From: Paraburkholderia phytofirmans PsJN
GTDB lineage: Bacteria; Pseudomonadota; Gammaproteobacteria; Burkholderiales; Burkholderiaceae
DNA: 64,000 nucleotides
Direction of reading: 5' to 3'
Assembly: GCF_000020125.1 (NCBI RefSeq)
Contig: NC_010681.1
Coordinates: forward strand, 1,736,001-1,800,000
Shown here: positions 44,728-53,515 of the stretch, in pieces
Position numbering within the stretch: position 1 is the stretch's first letter
Layout of the letters: each line of letters starts with the position of its first letter
The notes under the pieces: generated by a model
What the model saw: the letters and a program-made list of their open reading frames with translations, nothing else
Told to the model about the DNA's origin: nothing
Databases searched by the model: none
Made by a program: the position numbers and the translations under genes

Positions 44728-44789
44728 GTAGTGGTCCAATGGTCCTGGACATCTCTAAAGGGGATAATTCTCCAACTGAGGTGAGAGAC

Positions 44790-45092
44790 ATGGGCAGACG
44801 GAACCTGACAGACGAGTTCAAGGCTGAGGCAGTGCAACTGGTGGTTGCGCAGGGCTATCCAATCACCAAGGCCTGCGAGGCGTTGGGCGTGGGCGACTCG
44901 GCTTTGCGGCGCTGGGTGGCGCAGTGGCGTGCGCAGCAGGCTGAGCCGCCACGCAGCGACGTGCAGATCCAGCGCGACCAGCGACGCATCCGTGAGCTGG
45001 AAGCGCGCGTGATGGAGCTTGAGCGGGAGCGCGAGATACTAAAAAAGTCTACGGCCTTCTTCGTCAAGGAAATGGATCGCTCCTCGAAGTGA
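44790..45092 (+). CDS. IS3-family transposase OrfA
   Basis: A 100-residue HTH protein: GRRNLTDEFKAEAVQLVVAQ, ITKACEALGVGDSALRRWVAQW, and a leucine-zipper tail RIRELEARVMELEREREILKK that mediates multimerisation. GAGGTGAGAGAC precedes the ATG at 44790; the ATG at 44739 is less likely. A heptameric A6G slippery site near its end permits -1 frameshifting into orfB. The TGA overlaps the GTG of orfB. Confidence 0.93.
   Translation: MGRRNLTDEFKAEAVQLVVAQGYPITKACEALGVGDSALRRWVAQWRAQQAEPPRSDVQIQRDQRRIRELEARVMELEREREILKKSTAFFVKEMDRSSK
45041..45047 (+). other. programmed -1 frameshift slippery site (A6G)
   Basis: A_AAA_AAG in the orfA reading frame (codons AAA AAG). The -1 frame is open from here through to orfB with no stop in between, so slippage makes the OrfAB fusion transposase, as known in IS3-family elements. 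Confidence 0.8.
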
Positions 45093-45925
45093 TCCGTTCG
45101 CTGAAGAAGGCCTGGCCGGTGAGTCTGATGTGCCGTTTGCTGAAGGTGCCGCGAAGCAGCTATTACGCCTTTGCTGCGCGGCCGCCCAAACCGGGCGCAT
45201 CGCCTCCACTGCTGAAGGCCGTGCGTCAGATTCATAGCGAAAGCCGCAGCAGTTACGGCAGTCGCCGGATGGCGCAGGCACTGCAGCAGCAGGGTTATGC
45301 AATCGGACGCTACCGGGCGCGTTCACTGATGCGCGAGGCGCAACTGGCTGTGGCCAGGCGGCGAACGCACCGGTATCGCAAGGCCGAGGGTGAAGCCCTG
45401 ATTGCACCTAACCTGCTTGAGCGGCAATTCGAGCCGGGCGCGATCAACCGGGTATGGGCAGGCGATATCACGTATGTGAGAACGCGTCAGGGGTGGTCCT
45501 ATCTGGCCATCGTGATGGATCTGCACTCGCGCCGCATCGTAGGCTGGGCGTTCGCCTTGCAGGCGGATACGGAACTGGTCATCCAGGCCCTACAGCAGGC
45601 CCGGCAGAAGCGGCGCCCGGCAGCCGGGCTGATGTTCCACTCCGATCAGGGCTGCCAGTACACCAGCGAGCGCTTCGTGGGCGATCTGAAGGCGAACGGG
45701 ATCGTCCAGAGCATGAGCAGAAAGGGGAATTGTTGGGACAACGCGGTGGTCGAGCGCTTCTTCAGAAGCCTGAAGAGTGAATGGATTGGCGAACAGGAAT
45801 ACGGCAACCACGAACTCGCCCGCCGCGATATCGCGGGCTACATCGCAGACTTCTACAACTACCGGCGCATTCATTCGGCGGCAAACAATCTGCCGCCAGT
45901 GCGGTACGAAACTTCGATTTATTGA
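45089..45925 (+). CDS. IS3-family transposase OrfB (DDE integrase core)
   Basis: A 278-residue rve-type integrase. Catalytic triad: Asp in WAGDITYVR, Asp in FHSDQGCQYTS, Glu in NAVVERFFRSLKSE. N-terminal HTH-like region has SYYAFAAR and SSYGSRRMAQAL. The GTG at 45089 overlaps the orfA TGA, but in vivo the functional protein is probably the OrfAB fusion made by -1 frameshifting at the A6G site. No stop or deletion is seen. Confidence 0.94.
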   Translation: MIRSLKKAWPVSLMCRLLKVPRSSYYAFAARPPKPGASPPLLKAVRQIHSESRSSYGSRRMAQALQQQGYAIGRYRARSLMREAQLAVARRRTHRYRKAEGEALIAPNLLERQFEPGAINRVWAGDITYVRTRQGWSYLAIVMDLHSRRIVGWAFALQADTELVIQALQQARQKRRPAAGLMFHSDQGCQYTSERFVGDLKANGIVQSMSRKGNCWDNAVVERFFRSLKSEWIGEQEYGNHELARRDIAGYIADFYNYRRIHSAANNLPPVRYETSIY

Positions 45926-45996
45926 AAAAACCCTTTGTGGGTGTCCAAAGAGGCTTGACCACTACAAAGTGTGCTTCAACGGGCAACGGTCGTTTC

Positions 45997-46010
45997 GCGC
46001 ACCACAAAGT
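45997..46010. repeat. direct repeat GCGCACCACAAAGT, copy 2
   Basis: Exact second copy of 44714-44727, 31 bp beyond the right end of the IS3-family element, at the edge of the older IS3 remnant. Confidence 0.5.
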
Positions 46011-46317
46011 ATGCTCGGCTCGACCCAGAAGGTGTCGCGATGCTGATCGATGAAGCCTTCAGGACTTGAAACGGCGGTCGAGTTCCGCCTGGGTGAAAAA
46101 CGCGCTCGCGACTTTAGGAATCTCGTTGGCACGACGCAACTCCTCGACTTCGCGCTCCAGGGCCTTGAGGCGCCCCCACTCGTCTTTGGTCACGCCATCG
46201 CGCTCACTGTGGTCGCGCTTGACGCACTCGTGCAGTGTCCGCGGTGTACAGCCGATCATCGGCGCAATCGATTTGACCGCAGCCCGCGCGAAGACCCATC
46301 CGCGTGAACCATCGCGA
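46010..46317 (-). pseudogene. remnant of a second IS3-type element (orfA and start of orfB)
   Basis: Read on the minus strand: [25 protein letters not shown], then [37 protein letters not shown], the characteristic orfA of IS51/IS407-like elements. Downstream, 46010-46058 continues in another frame as FIDQHRDTFWVEPS, the N-terminal end of orfB, after which homology stops. Truncated and mutated, so inactive. It is joined to a response-regulator fragment and lies in the opposite orientation to the complete IS3 element next to it. Confidence 0.8.
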
Positions 46318-46511
46318 GGTTCGGGCATGGCAGACAGCATGACTTTCGGCACGTGGGCGAATGCAGGCTGGCATGTTATGCGCCGGCATAGCTCAGCGCC
46401 ATCCATTTCAGGCATCTGCCAATCGGTATCGATAAGCGTGGGCAATTCATGGTGAAAGGCATCGCAGCGCGATAAGGTGCCGGGGTATCTGCCCGGATGT
46501 CCAAGCCCCGC
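46317..46511 (-). pseudogene. response-regulator receiver-domain fragment
   Basis: Minus-strand frame encodes [28 protein letters not shown] and [18 protein letters not shown], i.e. the middle of a CheY-like receiver domain around the phosphoacceptor Asp (first Asp of [11 protein letters not shown] region). The C-terminal part is replaced by IS3 orfA sequence at about 46317 and the N-terminal part is missing or out of frame. It is therefore a broken response-regulator gene, apparently interrupted by the older IS. Confidence 0.72.
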
Positions 46512-46691
46512 TTACGGCATTCTGAAACGTATCAATCGCTCCGCTGCTAAAGTTTTACAGTAATCGGACGATAACTGCCTTATCGCGCAAAATCATCACG
46601 ATTGAAGGTCTCGCTCCATTTACAGGAGCTGGTGCAACAGGATGGTTGGGTAGAGTAGTTTTGTGCGGAAAAACCGGGTATAGGACAGAGC
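46512..46691. other. promoter region of the PYP-like gene
   Basis: 180 bp before the GTG start, AT-richer than most of the window, with a small GCTCC/GGAGC inverted repeat near 46613-46629. No further gene seen. It should hold the promoter for the three-gene signalling set. Confidence 0.45.
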
Positions 46692-47063
46692 GTGGACAAC
46701 GAATTCGAAAGTGTGCGGATAGCAGAACTGGCCATGCTGGACGCGGACCGGTTAGACGGGGTGCCATTTGGCGTCATCGGATTTACCTCGGATGCACTTG
46801 TCACGGTCTATAACGCTACTGAATCGAAGAACGCCGGATTGCGGCCAAAGATGGTGTTAGGGAAGCATTTCTTCGGAGAGGTCGCACCGTGCATGAACAA
46901 TTTCATGGTGGCGCAGCGCTTCGAAGATGAGGACGTACTTGACGACATCGTTCCCTACGTTTTGACCTTGCGCATGCGTCCGACGCCGGTGCGGCTCAGG
47001 CTCCTGAAAGCCACGGATTGCGCGACACGGTTTGTCCTGATTGAGCGAAGGGCGACAAATTGA
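46692..47063 (+). CDS. photoactive-yellow-protein-like PAS protein
   Basis: A 123-residue single-PAS protein whose pattern follows PYP: LDGVPFGVIGF, YNATESKNAG, GKHFFGEVAPC, and a PTPVRLRLLKATD end. Ungapped comparison to Halorhodospira PYP with an offset of 2 puts the chromophore cysteine C69 at C67 and the chromophore-bonding Y42/E46 at Y40/E44; T50 and R52 are replaced by A48 and L50. So thioester attachment of p-coumarate is plausible, with altered pocket gating. It has a GTG start after AGGA. Its stop overlaps the start of the diguanylate cyclase gene, so the two probably work together. Chromophore-free sensing cannot be excluded. Confidence 0.8.
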   Translation: MDNEFESVRIAELAMLDADRLDGVPFGVIGFTSDALVTVYNATESKNAGLRPKMVLGKHFFGEVAPCMNNFMVAQRFEDEDVLDDIVPYVLTLRMRPTPVRLRLLKATDCATRFVLIERRATN

Positions 47064-48400
47064 GCATGGTGAATCCAGATACGAGCGACCTTGAGTCCGA
47101 GTACGAGGCGTTGCTCTCTTTCATGTATCTGTCCCCCGTCGGGATTATCCGCAGCGACCTTGCGGGCTTTGTGGACATGTTGAATCCACTTGCCGCGCAG
47201 CTTCTCATGCCTCTTGTCAAAGACGGCGGTATCGAGAATATCTTCGACAGCCTCGCGTCAGTGGCGCCAGAGCTTCGCAATCTGGTGGCTAGCTTTGAGG
47301 GCGAGCGGGGGGCAGTGTGTGAAAACCACCGGGTGTTTGTGACACCAGCGAGGGATGGAGCGGTCGTCCTCGCATGTTCCATCATTAAGGTCGGTGCAAA
47401 TCTGTTGATGACAGTGCTAACAGACATTTCCCGACAGGTCGCCGCTGAGCGTCGCGCACGGCAGACAGAGTCATGGCTCGCCGGAATCTACACGAGTGTC
47501 AACGACTTTGCTTTCTTTTCGCTTGATGCTGAAGGGCGCATCGAAAGCTGGAATCCATCCGTTGAACGCTTGACCGGTTTTGACGAGACAGATGTCGTTG
47601 GGCACACGCTCTCTCGTTTTTATGCCCGCGACGAGATTGTCTTGCACCGTTCACCTGAGCATATCGCGCTAACACGTGACGAAGGTTGGCATGTGGAGGA
47701 GTTCTGGTGTGATACGAAGACCGGTCGGCGTTACTGGGGGCAAGTTCTCATCGCAGTGCTCCGCGAGGAGGGAGATGACATTTCAGGCTATTCGGTGGTC
47801 CTGAGAGACGTGACGGAGCGCAAGGTAAGCAGCGATAACCTCGCGCGTCTACTTACGACCGACCATCTGACTGGCGTATCGAGCCGAGCCCACTTTTTTG
47901 AAATTGCGGAGGCCGAGGTGGCACGTGCCGAACGGCACGGCCGTGCATTGTCGGTCGTTATGCTGGACGCGGATTACTTCAAGCGTATCAACGACACGGC
48001 CGGGCACCAAGCGGGTGACGAGGTTTTGAAACGCATCGCTGGCGAAGCAAAGGGACTGTTACGAACGTCCGACACGGTGGCGAGGCTCGGCGGCGAGGAA
48101 TTCATTCTGATGCTGCCGTCTACGACGACCAGCGAGGCGGTGGCGGTCGCCGAGCGATTGCGCGTTGCGGTCGAGCGGGCACGAATCGACACTGCGGTCG
48201 GGACATTGAAAGCGACAGTGAGTCTTGGCGTCGCAACCGTAAGCACCGCAAACCCGACGCTGCAGAGCTTGCTAGCCGCTGCTGACCGCGCACTTTATGA
48301 CGCGAAAAGAGCAGGGCGAAACTGCGTGCGCGGAGAGATGTTGAATTCAATGGACGTTTCCTGTTCTCCCTGCGAAGAAGGTAGTATGGGTCAAAACTGA
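47060..48400 (+). CDS. PAS-PAS-GGDEF diguanylate cyclase
   Basis: A 446-residue protein: N-terminal degenerate PAS (about residues 15-125), a second PAS (135-255: FAFFSLDAEGRIESWNPSVERLTG, ending VVLRDVTERK), then a GGDEF domain (270-430) with an active-type GGEEF (VARLGGEEFILML), substrate residues in FKRINDTAGHQAGDEVL, and an RxxD inhibitory site (LLRTSDTV) at the correct distance. It should make c-di-GMP and be feedback inhibited. TTG at 47060 overlaps the PYP-like TGA (TTGA) with AAGGG in front; the ATG at 47066 is an alternative. No membrane segment, so cytosolic. Confidence 0.88.
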   Translation: MSMVNPDTSDLESEYEALLSFMYLSPVGIIRSDLAGFVDMLNPLAAQLLMPLVKDGGIENIFDSLASVAPELRNLVASFEGERGAVCENHRVFVTPARDGAVVLACSIIKVGANLLMTVLTDISRQVAAERRARQTESWLAGIYTSVNDFAFFSLDAEGRIESWNPSVERLTGFDETDVVGHTLSRFYARDEIVLHRSPEHIALTRDEGWHVEEFWCDTKTGRRYWGQVLIAVLREEGDDISGYSVVLRDVTERKVSSDNLARLLTTDHLTGVSSRAHFFEIAEAEVARAERHGRALSVVMLDADYFKRINDTAGHQAGDEVLKRIAGEAKGLLRTSDTVARLGGEEFILMLPSTTTSEAVAVAERLRVAVERARIDTAVGTLKATVSLGVATVSTANPTLQSLLAAADRALYDAKRAGRNCVRGEMLNSMDVSCSPCEEGSMGQN

Positions 48401-48466
48401 CCGCTGCCCGCGACGGGGTCAATGGTCGCAATCCCAAACAGCAAACATTGGGGGCGTTAGACAGAG

Positions 48467-49258
48467 ATGGATTCAGTGAAGATTCATAGCCACGACGGAA
48501 GTAACGGACAATCGCAAAAATGTTCCGGGTGCAGCGACGCAACGCCACTGCCTGTCGAGATTGATTTTGCATTTCAGCCCATCGTCGATGTGAGCGCCAA
48601 GGCCGTGTTTGCATGCGAGGCGCTCGTGCGTGGTGCGCACGGGGAATCCGCGCATTCGGTGCTGTCGCAAATCGATGACGCGAAGAAGTATCAGTTCGAC
48701 CAGCATTGCCGGCAGGTTGCTATTGCCAGCGCCGCCGCGCTGGGTCTTGACGCGTTTCTCTCCATCAATTTCATGCCCAACGCGGTCTACAGGCCGGAGG
48801 TGTGCATAAGGAGCACCCTGGACGCTGCGCAAAAGCATGGCTTCCCGATTGAAAAAATCATATTCGAGACGGTCGAGGGAGAACATCTGGCGGACCGCTC
48901 ACATCTCGTCGAGATTTTCAGGGTATACAAGAAATTTGGTTTTCTGACAGCAATCGATGATTTCGGAGCTGGTTACTCGGGACTCGCGCTCCTCGTGGAC
49001 TTCCAGCCCGACATTATCAAGCTCGACATGGAACTCCTCCGAGGCATTGACCATGACTCGGTGCGTCAGCGCATCGTACGAGGTGTGATTTCAATATGTG
49101 ACGACCTCGGCATCCGCGTGGTCGCGGAGGGCATCGAAACCAAAGGGGAGCGTGACTTCTTCGTTGCACATGGCGTTAGCCTGATGCAAGGCTATTTCTT
49201 CGCGAAACCCGGTTTCAAATCGATTCCGCAAATCGATACGGCCGCGTATTTTCCGTAA
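48467..49258 (+). CDS. stand-alone EAL-domain c-di-GMP phosphodiesterase
   Basis: A 263-residue EAL protein, 66 bp after the cyclase on the same strand. The catalytic set is complete: ACEALVRG (E51 of EAL), NFMPN, FETVEGEH, DDFGAGYSG, IIKLDMEL and AEGIETKGE. It should degrade c-di-GMP to pGpG. An N-terminal extension carries a CSGC pair (C19, C22), a feature that could bind metal or be redox-active. Together with the PYP-like protein and the cyclase it would form a sensor/writer/eraser set. Start ATG at 48467 has only a weak ribosome-binding site. Confidence 0.88.
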   Translation: MDSVKIHSHDGSNGQSQKCSGCSDATPLPVEIDFAFQPIVDVSAKAVFACEALVRGAHGESAHSVLSQIDDAKKYQFDQHCRQVAIASAAALGLDAFLSINFMPNAVYRPEVCIRSTLDAAQKHGFPIEKIIFETVEGEHLADRSHLVEIFRVYKKFGFLTAIDDFGAGYSGLALLVDFQPDIIKLDMELLRGIDHDSVRQRIVRGVISICDDLGIRVVAEGIETKGERDFFVAHGVSLMQGYFFAKPGFKSIPQIDTAAYFP

Positions 49259-49332
49259 CGGTGAATACGGCCACGTTGCGGCGCGCGTAAGAATACTTTG
49301 ACGCGGCTTCGTGGTGAGGCAAGCACTCTTGC

Positions 49333-49470
49333 CGAGCGCGTGTCCTGCGCGGCCAGGACACGGATGTGTACGCTGACGCTGGCTATCAGGGTATCGAAAA
49401 GCGCCGCCAGGCGAACCCGGTTCGCTGGCATGTCGCGATGCGACCAGGCAGCCGTCGACAACTGGACTTG
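49333..49470 (+). pseudogene. IS5-family transposase fragment
   Basis: The plus-strand frame reads VLRGQDTDVYADAGYQGIEKR followed by RWHVAMRPGSRRQLD, the conserved catalytic-Asp region of IS5-group transposases (DAGYQG...WHVAMRPGK). Only about 45 codons remain, in a shifted frame from residues further upstream. The remainder is missing, so it is a decayed remnant and marks the right side of the accessory segment. Confidence 0.72.
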
Positions 49471-49508
49471 AACGCTAAACTGGTCCGAGCAACCAGAAGG
49501 AGACTCGG

Positions 49509-50248: not shown

Positions 50249-51376
50249 TCAGCTATTTTTGTCGCGTCGATAGAAAGCGAGCTTGTCTTCGTCGATATGC
50301 AAGCCCAGACCAGGCCCTTCCGTCAGATGAAGATCGAAGTCCCGATACTGCGGGCGCGCAGTGACGATGTCGTCCTTCAACAGGAGCGGTCCAAACAGTT
50401 CGGTGCCCCAGGCAAGTTGCGGCAGAGCGCTGAATCCGTGTGCCGATGCAATCGATCCGATGCTGCCCTCGAGCATCGTGCCGCCATACAGGGACACGCC
50501 GGCTGCATCCGCAATGGCCGCCGTACGCATCATTCCGTAGATTCCGCCGGACTTCGCGATCTTCAGCGCAAACACATCCGCACAGGCACCGCGCACAAGT
50601 TCGAGGGCATCCTCCGGGCCTGTCACCGCTTCGTCGGCCATGATGGGTACGATGAAACGCGATGCCAGTCTCGCCAGCGCGCCGCGCTGCTCTCGCGGAG
50701 TAGGCTGCTCGATGAGGTCGATACCGGCAGCTTCGAGCGCTGCAATGCCTAGCGCCGCGTCAGCCTCGTTCCACGCCTGATTGACGTCGACAGTGACTTT
50801 GGCGCGCTCGCCGAGCGCCGCTTTGATTTTCGACACGTGGGCCACGTCATCACGAACGCTACGCCTGCCGATCTTCAGCTTGAACGTATTGTGGCGACGT
50901 TCGGCGAGCAGCGTTTCCGCTTCATCTATATCGCGTTGGGTATCGCCGCTTGCGAGCGTCCACAGGACCGGAAGCGTCTTGCGGACAGCGCCGCCAAGAA
51001 GCGTCGAAACGGGAACGCCCAGGCGCTTGCCCTGAGCATCCAGCAAAGCCGTCTCGATTGCGCACTTGGCAAACCGGTTCCCTCGGGCGACCTTGTTCAG
51101 CTTGAGCATTGCGTCGTTGATGTTGGTCGCGTCCAGCCCAACGATCGCCGGTGCGAGATAGGTGTCGATGGTCAGCTTGATGCCTTCGGGACTCTCGTCG
51201 CCGTACGACAGGCCGCCAATCGTAGTCGCTTCGCCAATACCCTCGACGCCATCGCTCGAGCGTAGCCGGACGATCACCAGGGTTTGTTGCTGCATCGTCG
51301 CCATGGCAAGCTGGTGCGCGCGGATGGTTGGGAGATCAACCAGAATCGCTTCGACAGAGGTGATTTGGACGTTCAT
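50249..51376 (-). CDS. catB: muconate cycloisomerase CatB
   Basis: A 375-residue enolase-superfamily enzyme. The start NVQITSVEAILVDLPTIRAHQLAMATM matches muconate cycloisomerases; the KLKIG motif carries the catalytic Lys, VDVNQAW and IEQP and MADEAV hold metal ligands. It converts cis,cis-muconate to muconolactone. A longer frame beginning at 51460 is not conserved and overlaps an operator, so I start at 51376. A perfect CatM/BenM-type operator lies 83 bp upstream, indicating control by muconate (or benzoate) via CatR. Confidence 0.94.
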   Translation of the reverse strand: MNVQITSVEAILVDLPTIRAHQLAMATMQQQTLVIVRLRSSDGVEGIGEATTIGGLSYGDESPEGIKLTIDTYLAPAIVGLDATNINDAMLKLNKVARGNRFAKCAIETALLDAQGKRLGVPVSTLLGGAVRKTLPVLWTLASGDTQRDIDEAETLLAERRHNTFKLKIGRRSVRDDVAHVSKIKAALGERAKVTVDVNQAWNEADAALGIAALEAAGIDLIEQPTPREQRGALARLASRFIVPIMADEAVTGPEDALELVRGACADVFALKIAKSGGIYGMMRTAAIADAAGVSLYGGTMLEGSIGSIASAHGFSALPQLAWGTELFGPLLLKDDIVTARPQYRDFDLHLTEGPGLGLHIDEDKLAFYRRDKNS

Positions 51377-51458
51377 ACCGGGAATGTTGGAGTGGAGAGG
51401 TTGCTGAAGTATTGCGTGTGCAATGACCGCCTGTCCAACACCGTCGACGTCTAGTGCC

Positions 51459-51473
51459 ATACCTCCGGGGTAT
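51459..51473. promoter_or_regulatory. CatR/BenM operator upstream of catB
   Basis: ATAC-N7-GTAT inside the near-perfect palindrome CCATACCTCCGGGGTATGG. This is the consensus of BenM and CatM operators. It lies between catB and the 3' end of catR, about 83 bp before catB. A TTGGAC/CAATAC promoter-like pair with 18-bp spacing follows on the minus strand. Confidence 0.7.
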
Positions 51474-51481
51474 GGCGGATA

Positions 51482-52405
51482 TCACGGCCCCGAATCGTTA
51501 CGGGGTGCAAAGCTTATTTTTTCCTCCTCGTACAGCCGATAGATGAGTTCGAGCATTTCCCGAATGTCGCGCGACTCGTCGAGCGCACGCATGCTCATGA
51601 TGATGGGCGAAACCAGAGTAGGGTCGTCCAGTTCCTTGTAGCTCACATCGTCTCGCTTCAGGCCGTACACGCTGCTCGGGACCACTGAAATTCCTTCGCC
51701 CGCCGCCACGAGGCCTAGCGCAATTTGCAATTCCCGTACTTCATAGATCCGGCGAGGCTTGAGACCGCGGTCTTCGAATGCCGACAGCACCTGGTCTGCG
51801 TAACTGGGGCGCGGCGCCTTGGGGAAAATGATCAGCGTTTCGTTGACCAGGTCGCTGAGAGCGAGGACGGGCTTGGCCAGTGAGAGTGGATGGCCCTCCG
51901 GGAACGCAACGATCATCTTCTCCTCGCGAAGAATCACCCGGCGGATGTTGGGGTCCTCGTGCCGAATGCGACCGAACCCGACATCGATCTGACCGTCCTT
52001 GAGTGCTCGAATCTGATCCATCGTCGACATCTCGTGAAGGCTGAGTTCGACGGTGGTGTTCTCGTCGCGGAAGCGCCGGATGATTTTGGGCAGCATTCCA
52101 TACAACGTCGAGCCGACAAAACCGACGGAAAGACTGCGCTCGATGTTGCCCACTCGGCGCGTCATGGATTCGAGTTCGGACGTCTGAGCCAGTAACTGGA
52201 CGGCGTGAGCATAGAAGAACTTGCCCGTCTCGGTGAGCTTCAACGGACGCGAATCACGCTGGAATAGCTGCACCTCGAGAATCTCTTCAAGCTGCTGGAT
52301 CTGACGGCTCAAAGGCGGTTGCGCCATGTTCAGCCGCTGGGCCGCGCGCGTGAAATTGCGTTCCTCGGCCACGGCGACGAAATAACGAAGATGCCGCAGT
52401 TCCAT
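51482..52405 (-). CDS. catR: LysR-type regulator of catechol/benzoate genes (CatR/BenM)
   Basis: A 307-residue LysR regulator very like CatR/CatM/BenM: ELRHLRYFVAVAEERNFTRAAQRLNMAQPPLSRQIQQLE (HTH) and SVGFVGSTLYGMLPKIIRRFR. The effector domain with VVPSSVYGL would bind muconate and possibly benzoate. It is divergent from catA, with operators overlapping its own start, so autoregulation and activation of catA-ben are likely. No AraC-type BenR is present in the window. Calling it catR rather than benM is a choice; both effectors are possible. Confidence 0.9.
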   Translation of the reverse strand: MELRHLRYFVAVAEERNFTRAAQRLNMAQPPLSRQIQQLEEILEVQLFQRDSRPLKLTETGKFFYAHAVQLLAQTSELESMTRRVGNIERSLSVGFVGSTLYGMLPKIIRRFRDENTTVELSLHEMSTMDQIRALKDGQIDVGFGRIRHEDPNIRRVILREEKMIVAFPEGHPLSLAKPVLALSDLVNETLIIFPKAPRPSYADQVLSAFEDRGLKPRRIYEVRELQIALGLVAAGEGISVVPSSVYGLKRDDVSYKELDDPTLVSPIIMSMRALDESRDIREMLELIYRLYEEEKISFAPRNDSGP

Positions 52406-52409
52406 TTCA

Positions 52410-52445
52410 ATACCTCGTGGATATAGGCCGATACTAAATCAGTGT
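52410..52445. promoter_or_regulatory. paired CatR/BenM operators between catR and catA
   Basis: ATAC-N7-ATAT at 52410-52424 and ATAC-N7-GTGT at 52431-52445, 21 bp apart. BenM sites in Acinetobacter have ATAC-N7-GTAT followed by ATAC-N7-GTGT at a similar spacing. A third, weaker ATAC-N7-GCAT lies at 52504-52518. The sites begin 4 bp from the catR start codon, so they may control both directions. Confidence 0.65.
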
Positions 52446-52579
52446 TGGACGAGGCCTTCTGACGTCCATTATTCTGCATTCACACTCTGTTTCAGCACCC
52501 ATTATACCTCTCAGGCATACTCAAACGGGCGCTAAACCAAGGGTTTACCCCATCAGAAAATAGAGATTCAGGAGCAGAC

Positions 52580-53515
52580 ATGAGCGTCAAAGTGTTCGAT
52601 ACGAAGGAAGTGCAAGACCTGCTGAAAGCTGCTGCCAACGTGGGCAGCCAGGACGGCGGGGCTCGCGCAAAGCAGATCGTCAATCGCCTGCTCGGCGACC
52701 TGTTCAAGGCCATCGACGACCTCGACATGACGCCCGACGAAATCTGGGCCGGCGTCCACTACTTCAACAAGCTCGGACAGGACGGCGAAGCTGCGCTCTT
52801 GGCTGCCGGTCTCGGTCTGGAGAAATACCTCGACATCCGCATGGACGCGGAAGACAAGGCGGCTGAAATTACCGGCGGCACGCCGCGTACCATCGAAGGT
52901 CCGCTGTATGTCGCCGGTGCGCCCGTGCGCGAAGGCGTGTCGAGAATCGATATCGATCCGGACGAGGACGCCGGCCCGCTGGTGATCCGCGGCACGGTGA
53001 CCGGCCCGGATGGCAAGCCCGTCGCGGGCGCGCTGGTCGAATGCTGGCACGCTAATTCGAAAGGCTTCTATTCGCACTTCGACCCGACCAGCAAGCAGAG
53101 CGAATTCAATCTGCGCGGCGCGGTTAGCACCGGCGCCGACGGCAAGTACGAGTTCCGCACGCTCATGCCGGTAGGCTACGGTTGCCCGCCGCATGGCGCG
53201 ACCCAGCAACTGCTGGACGTGCTCGGCCGCCATGGCAACCGTCCGGCGCACGTGCACTTTTTCGTCACGGCCGACAAGTCCCGCAAGCTGACGACGCAGA
53301 TCAATATCGAGGGCGACCCGTTGATCTGGGACGACTTTGCTTACGCCACTCGCGAGGATCTGATTCCTCACGTGGTTGAAAAGACCGGCGGCACCGCGCT
53401 GGGAATGAAGACCGATGCGTATAAGGAAATCCAGTTCGACATCGAGTTGACTCCGCTGATTCAGGGCAAGGATAACCAGCTGGTGCATCGTCCGCGTGTG
53501 TCTGTCAGCGCCTGA
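52580..53515 (+). CDS. catA: catechol 1,2-dioxygenase CatA
   Basis: A 311-residue intradiol dioxygenase. Iron ligands fall at Y164 (KGFYSHFD), Y200 (PVGYGCPP), H224 and H226 (RPAHVHFF), at the same residue numbers as in the Acinetobacter enzyme. The helical dimerisation N-terminus is present. It opens catechol to cis,cis-muconate, the inducer of CatR. An AGGAG sequence precedes the ATG at 52580. catA is first in the plus-strand run leading to benABCD, so benzoate oxidation and catechol cleavage are coexpressed. Confidence 0.95.
   Translation: MSVKVFDTKEVQDLLKAAANVGSQDGGARAKQIVNRLLGDLFKAIDDLDMTPDEIWAGVHYFNKLGQDGEAALLAAGLGLEKYLDIRMDAEDKAAEITGGTPRTIEGPLYVAGAPVREGVSRIDIDPDEDAGPLVIRGTVTGPDGKPVAGALVECWHANSKGFYSHFDPTSKQSEFNLRGAVSTGADGKYEFRTLMPVGYGCPPHGATQQLLDVLGRHGNRPAHVHFFVTADKSRKLTTQINIEGDPLIWDDFAYATREDLIPHVVEKTGGTALGMKTDAYKEIQFDIELTPLIQGKDNQLVHRPRVSVSA

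Follow-up and report, generated by a model that had tools for sequence, protein, structure and literature searches.

A predicted light-responsive cyclic di-GMP operon in Paraburkholderia phytofirmans PsJN and a candidate receiver domain for clade-C photoactive yellow proteins

Introduction

Photoactive yellow proteins (PYPs) encoded beside enzymes of cyclic di-GMP turnover are the closest described relatives of the gene set considered here. In the sections of the survey by Xing, Gumerov & Zhulin (2022, PMC9664959) on which we draw, clade-C PYPs of Burkholderiales often adjoin GGDEF or EAL genes, no clade-C PYP is thoroughly characterised, and for the model PYP no partner has ever been identified. 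Predicted pyp operons number 29 with GGDEF and 22 with EAL in the portions of Dohmen 2025 (PMC12826048) used here. We examined such a set, comprising a PYP, a diguanylate cyclase and an EAL protein, in a 64,000-nucleotide stretch of Paraburkholderia phytofirmans PsJN, the host genome (NC_010681.1, positions 1,736,001 to 1,800,000, forward strand; this whole stretch is called the window, and positions count from its first nucleotide). A first-pass annotation of the sequence had called the coupling of a small photoreceptor to cyclic di-GMP enzymes unusual. PYPs beside GGDEF and EAL genes are already in print, in the passages cited of both papers (PMC9664959, PMC12826048), so the three-gene operon itself is of a known kind. 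What appears to be new is a PAS-like N-terminal domain without a Pfam or NCBIfam family, common to the partners of clade-C PYPs, which we propose as a PYP receiver.

The window PYP resembles the clade-C proteins of Xing 2022 in branch, pocket residues and classes of neighbour, and the text of that paper considered here does not mention an N-terminal domain common to the neighbours. Dohmen 2025 describes pyp with GGDEF or EAL genes as in the window, counted by output domain, and its consulted sections report no shared receiver domain. In Idiomarina loihiensis a single-domain PYP likewise stands beside a cyclase (van der Horst 2009) and is thought to act in trans on the adjacent GGDEF protein, controlling biofilm, but that PYP belongs to clade A (PMC9664959, passage on this species). 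Ppd of Thermochromatium tepidum also joins a blue-light PYP input to a cyclic di-GMP output; it differs in being one polypeptide, a PYP-phytochrome-GGDEF-EAL fusion with a clade A PYP (as described in parts of PMC9664959 and PMC12826048). By Foldseek the cyclase model resembles a LOV-activated diguanylate cyclase (PDB 8c05, E 2.9e-20), where light domain, helix and GGDEF appear to follow one another as in the model, although in 8c05 the PAS-type light domain is built into the cyclase. The chromophore of 8c05 is a flavin. Rhodobacter capsulatus PYP reportedly has a PYP-binding protein (Kim 2021), a protein partner such as we propose for the window.

How a single-domain PYP hands on its signal is an open question, and the roughly 115-residue domain that accompanies clade-C PYP offers a defined fragment with which to approach it. 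If the domain binds PYP in a light-dependent way, the pair would form a compact two-part light switch, already joined to different enzymes in nature. Our literature search found no description of the shared domain in the texts it covered; subscription papers (for example, Meyer 2012) and supplements lay outside its scope, and priority is unproven.

A clade-C PYP beside a diguanylate cyclase and an EAL protein

The genes and the parts of them discussed below are as follows.

46692-47063, + strand: pyp, clade-C photoactive yellow protein by sequence (123 aa, GTG start)
46890-46892, + strand: Cys67 codon (position 69 in H. halophila PYP), site of the predicted thioester link to the chromophore; Cys in 93 of 93 PYP reading frames with a residue there
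47060-48400, + strand: predicted diguanylate cyclase with N-terminal domain, PAS and GGEEF (446 aa, TTG start)
47096-47443, + strand: conserved PAS-like domain, cyclase residues 13-128, proposed PYP receiver domain (profile search of loci)
47495-47827, + strand: second PAS domain, about residues 146-256 (Pfam PAS_9, PAS, PAS_4, PAS_8)
47846-48331, + strand: GGDEF domain, residues 263-424, with RTSD and GGEEF active site (family profiles)
48467-49258, + strand: stand-alone EAL protein, RimA-like (263 aa, ATG start)

All three genes are real, and the compact same-strand arrangement given by the first-pass annotation was confirmed from the open reading frames (ORFs): pyp and cyclase overlap by 4 bp (TTGA, 47060-47063), and 66 bp separate the cyclase from the EAL gene. 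The overlap is contingent on the TTG start of the cyclase, an in-frame ATG lying two codons on at 47066. An equal overlap occurs in 20 of the 80 related loci introduced below (GTGA in 8, TTGA in 7, ATGA in 5), a lower bound because ORF starts were assigned mechanically. No sigma-70-like promoter was found in 46400-49500, where 1.4 would be expected.

By its sequence and modelled fold, the 123-aa protein is a member of the PYP family, in clade C of Xing 2022. The photo_yellow model TIGR02373 matches it (62.2 bits, E 4.8e-17) far more strongly than Pfam PAS does (E 0.0015), in agreement with the earlier assignment to PYP rather than to generic PAS; the curated cut-off of 143.05 is not reached, so the protein is not filed under that equivalog. 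The same model captures only 20% of BLAST-found PYP homologs, by the figure given in the sections used of Xing 2022 (PMC9664959). All 33 sequences matched by phmmer in the PDB (E<=1; best E 1.2e-14) are PYP, Ppr-PYP or PYP-derived FAST/nanoFAST. With the AlphaFold model (pLDDT 91.9) as query, Foldseek ranks 1-40 are all of PYP, Ppr-PYP or FAST type (TM 0.64-0.86 by query length), and generic PAS first appears at rank 41 (E 3.5e-5).

The chromophore cysteine and two pocket residues claimed at first reading are in place: Tyr40, Glu44 and Cys67 align with Tyr42, Glu46 and Cys69 of H. halophila PYP, whose numbering we use hereafter. This triad is kept wherever the residue is present in an alignment of 95 PYP ORFs (Tyr42 92/92, Glu46 92/92, Cys69 93/93), which comprises the window and the fetched loci, some of them duplicates, and whose gaps, two of them in the Cys69 column, are pieces of a broken copy and one truncated ORF. 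Of the features by which Xing 2022 recognises the family, the protein has these three residues and a sequence and fold nearer to PYP than to generic PAS. Phe62, Tyr94 and Met100 are also retained. In clade C, according to the part of Xing 2022 consulted (PMC9664959), Phe92, Phe96 and Trp119 are not conserved and Met100 is; the window PYP has V, L and F at 92, 96 and 119 and M at 100. A FastTree phylogeny of 93 sequences, which left out L001, L002, L005, L006 and L008 as duplicates or pieces, groups it with the clade-C loci (support 0.84), whereas H. halophila PYP and seven clade-A-like copies fall outside this group. It is the single PYP match in the host genome and so is probably the one meant in a review sentence that cites Kumauchi 2008 for genes with a PYP domain in B. 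phytofirmans (PMC6627678, that sentence). A PYP search of viral contigs gave no match.

The readings of the second and third genes as a PAS-PAS-GGEEF cyclase and a complete EAL protein also held. From its profile matches (GGDEF PF00990, E 1.9e-44; PAS_9, E 3.8e-14), the former is an intact diguanylate cyclase whose activity is predicted; its RTSD motif is presumably the I-site. The window protein has a GGEEF site; in an alignment of 66 cyclase ORFs, where the window cyclase enters twice, 65 have GG(E/D)EF and one is gapped at this site, and D303 and G344-F348 are invariant across 74 aligned cyclases. The latter is an intact stand-alone EAL protein (EAL PF00563, E 2.3e-44), with predicted phosphodiesterase function. 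It has the EAL, N, E, DD, K, E and Q motifs that we take to be the catalytic list of EAL phosphodiesterases, and it scores 396.8 bits with the RimA model NF052265, below the cut-off of 430, so it is not filed as RimA.

A PAS-like domain common to the partners of clade-C PYPs

A PYP-based scan of genome contigs supplied related loci, 80 of 89 of which were analysed; some end at contig edges, so that neighbour counts are lower bounds, and the limits of partner ORFs were set mechanically. Linkage to cyclic di-GMP enzymes, proposed at first pass as a check on the set, is kept in these relatives: the first downstream partner of the clade-C pyp is a PAS-PAS-GGDEF cyclase in 63 loci and a GGDEF-EAL protein in 10. 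In the other seven, the N-terminal domain is joined to a PAS, to a histidine kinase or to an unassigned C-terminus, or the frame is broken. Where a cyclase comes first, a GGDEF-EAL gene is next in 37 of the 63 loci, and nearly all of these genes bear an N-terminal domain of their own (across the GGDEF-EAL ORFs, the EAL motif is present in 48/48 and exact GGDEF in 35/48). A stand-alone EAL gene follows the cyclase in only nine loci (L009-L015, L018, L026). The annotation of Caballeronia plasmid pSBC2-3 shows pyp, cyclase and EAL ordered as in the window; further along are another pyp and an AMP-binding gene.

Side-by-side reading of the partners suggested a common segment, and a profile was seeded from residues 9-128 of the window cyclase. 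In every one of the 80 clade-C loci it has a match in the first partner downstream, directly after pyp in 79. The domain starts 18-102 bp past the pyp stop in these 79 and 2,222 bp past it in L010, where an insertion intervenes. Further matches lie downstream in the same loci (46 in all, one a 28-bit fragment).

Family databases do not cover this segment. The window copy belongs to no Pfam family, and among 41 members two have a single weak Pfam match each; NCBIfam returns only weak aminotransferase matches, far under cut-off. The first Pfam match in the window cyclase starts at residue 146, and in nine domain-bearing partners that were scanned no Pfam best stretch starts before residue 137. 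The outputs of these nine are GGDEF-EAL, EAL-PAS-GGDEF, HisKA-HATPase (L038, from a Myxococcota metagenome-assembled genome) and PAS without an identified output. In the AlphaFold model of the cyclase (pLDDT 82.1, pTM 0.51), the predicted order of strands and helices in residues 13-128 is PAS-like, and a helix, residues 124-146, appears to follow. We do not claim derivation of the domain from PYP (profile-profile comparison, hhalign probability 6%), and six PDB sequence matches of the domain (E 0.15-0.93) were judged to be chance. Three partners continue, after the N-terminal domain and a PAS, with more than 100 C-terminal residues that lack a Pfam family (L051:2913-3986, L054:6312-7430, L088:6309-7367). 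Two copies of the domain occur on one ORF in L027 and L030, those of L030 at residues 14-128 and 280-391, ahead of GGDEF-EAL.

Linkage of domain and PYP across genomes and plasmids

Linkage of the domain with clade-C PYP is strong and not perfect. In a set of 399 Burkholderiales genomes, with up to 11 candidates scored for each and a domain threshold of E 1e-5, the domain is found in 11, and these are the identical 11 that have a clade-C PYP. The 388 genomes without a match include G182, which has only weak clade-A-like PYPs. For 21 of the 22 domain matches a PYP is no more than 2 kb away; conversely, 12 of 12 PYP matches of at least 120 bits have the domain directly downstream, and among six weaker ones only a fragment does. 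Seven of the 11 genomes had been seen beforehand: the window's own, G086 and five that coincide with loci (G436 = L047, G340 = L063/L077, G410 = L076, G449 = L080, G221:C71 = L084). In the new genomes G354, G325, G113 and G311, all seven domain matches stand beside a PYP; G221 adds two new matches, one beside a PYP fragment and one without a PYP.

In eight genomes behind loci chosen from the 80, 14 of 15 domain matches are beside a PYP; 11 of these were known beforehand, and the other three are from the four new matches. The domain is directly downstream of all 13 PYP matches of at least 140 bits (three new) and of none of the seven weaker ones; one of these seven, in G1395, is some 2.3 kb past a clade-C operon. 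Pooling both genome sets, 11 of 13 new domain matches are beside a PYP, and the domain directly follows all seven new strong PYPs. In a sample of 398 genomes of the phylum, strong domain matches occur only in G000 and G113. Nine further matches there (20.7-29.3 bits) were taken as generic PAS; no significant PYP was found in the fetched stretches of about 3 kb.

Plasmids were searched with the cyclase only (E 1e-30). Eleven records matched, all outside the set of 80 loci. They come from Caballeronia, Rhizobium, Polymorphobacter, Sphingomonas, Methylobacterium and Indioceanicola, and the best place in each directly adjoins a PYP (11/11; the count takes one place per record, a second place in NZ_CP049319 lying outside it). 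A plasmid search with PYP gave 13 records, these 11 together with CP099603 and one from Niveispirillum, whose PYP is clade-A-like (70.5 bits). The neighbours of the CP099603 PYP (L120:3950-4336) include two histidine-kinase-like genes; upstream of it are a histidine kinase, a protein that matches no Pfam family and a member of the carboxymuconolactone decarboxylase family.

Protein searches raised a possible counter-example: Pseudomonas cyclases appear among the 120 of 155 matches listed, and no protein named Pseudomonas appears among the 120 of 4277 PYP matches listed. In a cyclase-only search of the Pseudomonas family, 1 of 298 genomes matched, and a PYP with the triad is directly upstream of its cyclase; a 263-aa EAL gene lies ahead of this pyp. 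These genomes were drawn through an RNA family that we take to mark the Pseudomonas family, a reading that a 93% match to a Pseudomonas-named protein bears out; a first draw had given only weak matches and a larger draw the one clear match. By eye, the surroundings of this EAL-pyp-dgc set (G1365:C1; L117:1474-11630, L116:3297-3755) include a gene for a KaiC-like ATPase and, on the opposite strand, one for a short LOV-type protein; the region is possibly a light-sensing island.

Sources of the chromophore

The first-pass annotation suggested that p-coumarate might come from the plant. That stays possible, but related loci and the host genome indicate that it is not required. A pCL-like ligase gene is present in 13 of the 80 loci, next to the clade-C pyp in 10 (one of them L086, where two pyp genes enclose it) and nearer to a second, clade-A-like pyp in three, and a gene resembling tyrosine ammonia-lyase (TAL) occurs in five. 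The 10 CoA-ligase-like genes beside a clade-C pyp speak for chromophore loading.

The host genome has three aromatic-lyase genes. The selectivity site is Ser-His in two, presumably as in histidine lyases, and Tyr-His in the third, which shares 62% identity with the lyase linked to pyp in L086. The best NCBIfam models for this third lyase, none of whose cut-offs it reaches, are a tyrosine ammonia-lyase (427.9 bits against 1000) and histidine lyases, so that its substrate is unproven. It lies 1.67 Mb from the window, in a cluster with ApeP-like and ApeI-like dehydratases, ketosynthases, an MMPL protein and an AMP-ligase, which we read as of aryl-polyene type (L100:1048-16028, G000:C3:3442000-3460000). 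No dedicated CoA ligase was found in the host genome. A self-made chromophore in the host is plausible from this gene content.

L007, L015, L041, L059, L086 and L122 have, besides the clade-C pyp, a clade-A-like one no more than about 13 kb away, with a CoA-ligase-like gene close to the latter. By eye, the pyp-linked CoA ligases of 410 aa start with an acyl-carrier-like segment; genes for the PYP chromophore and for pigments may therefore share ancestry.

Proposed mechanism and alternative explanations

We consider it probable that the set is a light-regulated cyclic di-GMP operon in which PYP acts in trans on the cyclase, most likely through the N-terminal domain. The single-domain clade-C PYP, probably carrying p-coumarate on Cys67, would absorb blue light and change conformation. 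It would then act on the diguanylate cyclase encoded by the overlapping gene, docking most likely on the PAS-like domain of residues 13-128, which could relay the change to the GGEEF dimer by way of helix 124-146 and the second PAS. The EAL protein, whose gene is probably co-transcribed, would set an opposing rate of breakdown and may not see light. Gene order, the intact pocket, the active-site motifs and a strong but imperfect linkage of the N-terminal domain with clade-C PYP are observed; we infer co-transcription, chromophore binding, direct contact, the direction of the light effect and a biofilm or motility output. More generally, and with slightly less assurance, we suspect that clade-C PYPs form a modular trans-acting system: a free PYP would dock on a dedicated PAS-type receiver placed on different outputs, often in two proteins per operon, such that one photoreceptor drives several enzymes. 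We count in favour of a receiver that the domain stays constant while outputs vary (GGDEF, GGDEF-EAL, HisKA-HATPase).

Several observations weigh against this interpretation. Because the receiver idea was formed on the 80 loci, it is tested only by the later, smaller set, and that set has exceptions. Domain matches without a neighbouring PYP occur at G221:C41 (about 78 bits; no PYP in the 10 kb fetched, genome 68% complete) and at G1394:C9; each of the two genomes has a clade-C PYP at another place. The CP099603 PYP (154.6 bits to the clade-C profile) has no domain in the 8.3 kb fetched; the clade-A-like Niveispirillum PYP likewise lacks one. No PYP-domain fusion was noticed, in material not searched specifically for fusions. 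In a mirror-tree analysis of 63 pairs, the partial correlation between PYP and the N-terminal domain was 0.03, a value reached by 143 of 500 permutations, against 0.27 for the second PAS and 0.27 for GGDEF, and the analysis gave no support for coevolution with PYP specific to the domain. These correlations favour a different arrangement, in which PYP controls the cyclase but docks on the second PAS or GGDEF. The N-terminal domain, passed on along with the gene and copied into the second one, would then be a PAS that serves dimerisation or senses independently. The PAS-like predicted fold and the CP099603 PYP would also fit, and PAS domains often dimerise. Yet some partners lose or replace the second PAS and GGDEF (the histidine kinase of L038, GGDEF-EAL proteins) while the N-terminal domain stays, and an ordinary inherited PAS sits poorly with its absence at E 1e-5 from 388 Burkholderiales genomes, including G182 with clade-A-like PYPs only. 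We give docking elsewhere roughly one chance in a handful.

Two further points weigh against the light-driven mechanism. Pocket substitutions in the window PYP (T50A, R52L, F92V, F96L, Y98L, W119F) could alter its photochemistry, and the host genome has no close pCL homologue, the best being the ligase of the aryl-polyene-type cluster (32% identity over residues 71-359). Both points would suit an apo-PYP or other small-molecule binder, with the operon sensing phenolics or redox instead of light. We regard this as improbable: Tyr42, Glu46 and Cys69 are invariant where present, relatives hold CoA-ligase-like or TAL-like genes beside clade-C pyp, and a TAL-like gene exists in the host. Nothing turned up that favours a phenolic over a light sensor, and neither was tested. 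Still harder to credit is that the set is a decaying passenger of mobile elements, functionless in its host; mobile-element remnants adjoin it and relatives have damaged copies, but its three reading frames and active-site motifs are intact.

Direct coupling of the photoreceptor to both synthesis and breakdown, as first claimed, is thus only partly sustained. For synthesis, the proposed coupling domain is on the cyclase. For breakdown, the N-terminal-domain profile has no match in the window EAL protein, whose light coupling is therefore unproven, and stand-alone EAL genes follow the cyclase only in the nine loci noted and on the Caballeronia plasmid. The EAL protein might instead be a RimA-like phosphodiesterase captured beside a two-gene pyp-dgc unit and without a light role, a proposal compatible with our preferred mechanism that we find credible while leaning the other way. 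The RimA score, the missing domain, the 66-bp gap and the rarity of such genes all agree with capture. Against it, an EAL gene accompanies pyp-dgc upstream in Pseudomonas (263 aa) and downstream on the Caballeronia plasmid, and the GGDEF-EAL genes next in 37 of 63 cyclase loci nearly all bear their own N-terminal domain.

Distribution and flanking regions

The gene set is patchy, matching 5 of 98 related genomes, one of which is the window's own. Damaged copies occur within the genus: pyp is split over two frames in L006/L008 (G014), the 2.2-kb insertion of L010 (G004) separates pyp from the cyclase, and in L005 (G006) a pyp remnant overlaps an EAL ORF. Mobile-element remnants flank the window set on both sides, at 44739-46445 (IS3-type, ALIL) and 49284-49500. 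Upstream, Rfam ALIL (RF01497) matches at 46000-46104 on the - strand, and we read the ORFs there as IS3-type transposase genes.

44739-46104, no strand assigned: putative IS3-type transposase genes and ALIL frameshift element, mobile-element flank upstream of the set (Rfam and ORF reading)

The downstream fragment (49284-49500) resembles, by eye, an IS5-type transposase. Beyond it, at 50249-53515, lies what by eye is a catechol degradation set, with muconate cycloisomerase, a LysR regulator and catechol dioxygenase.

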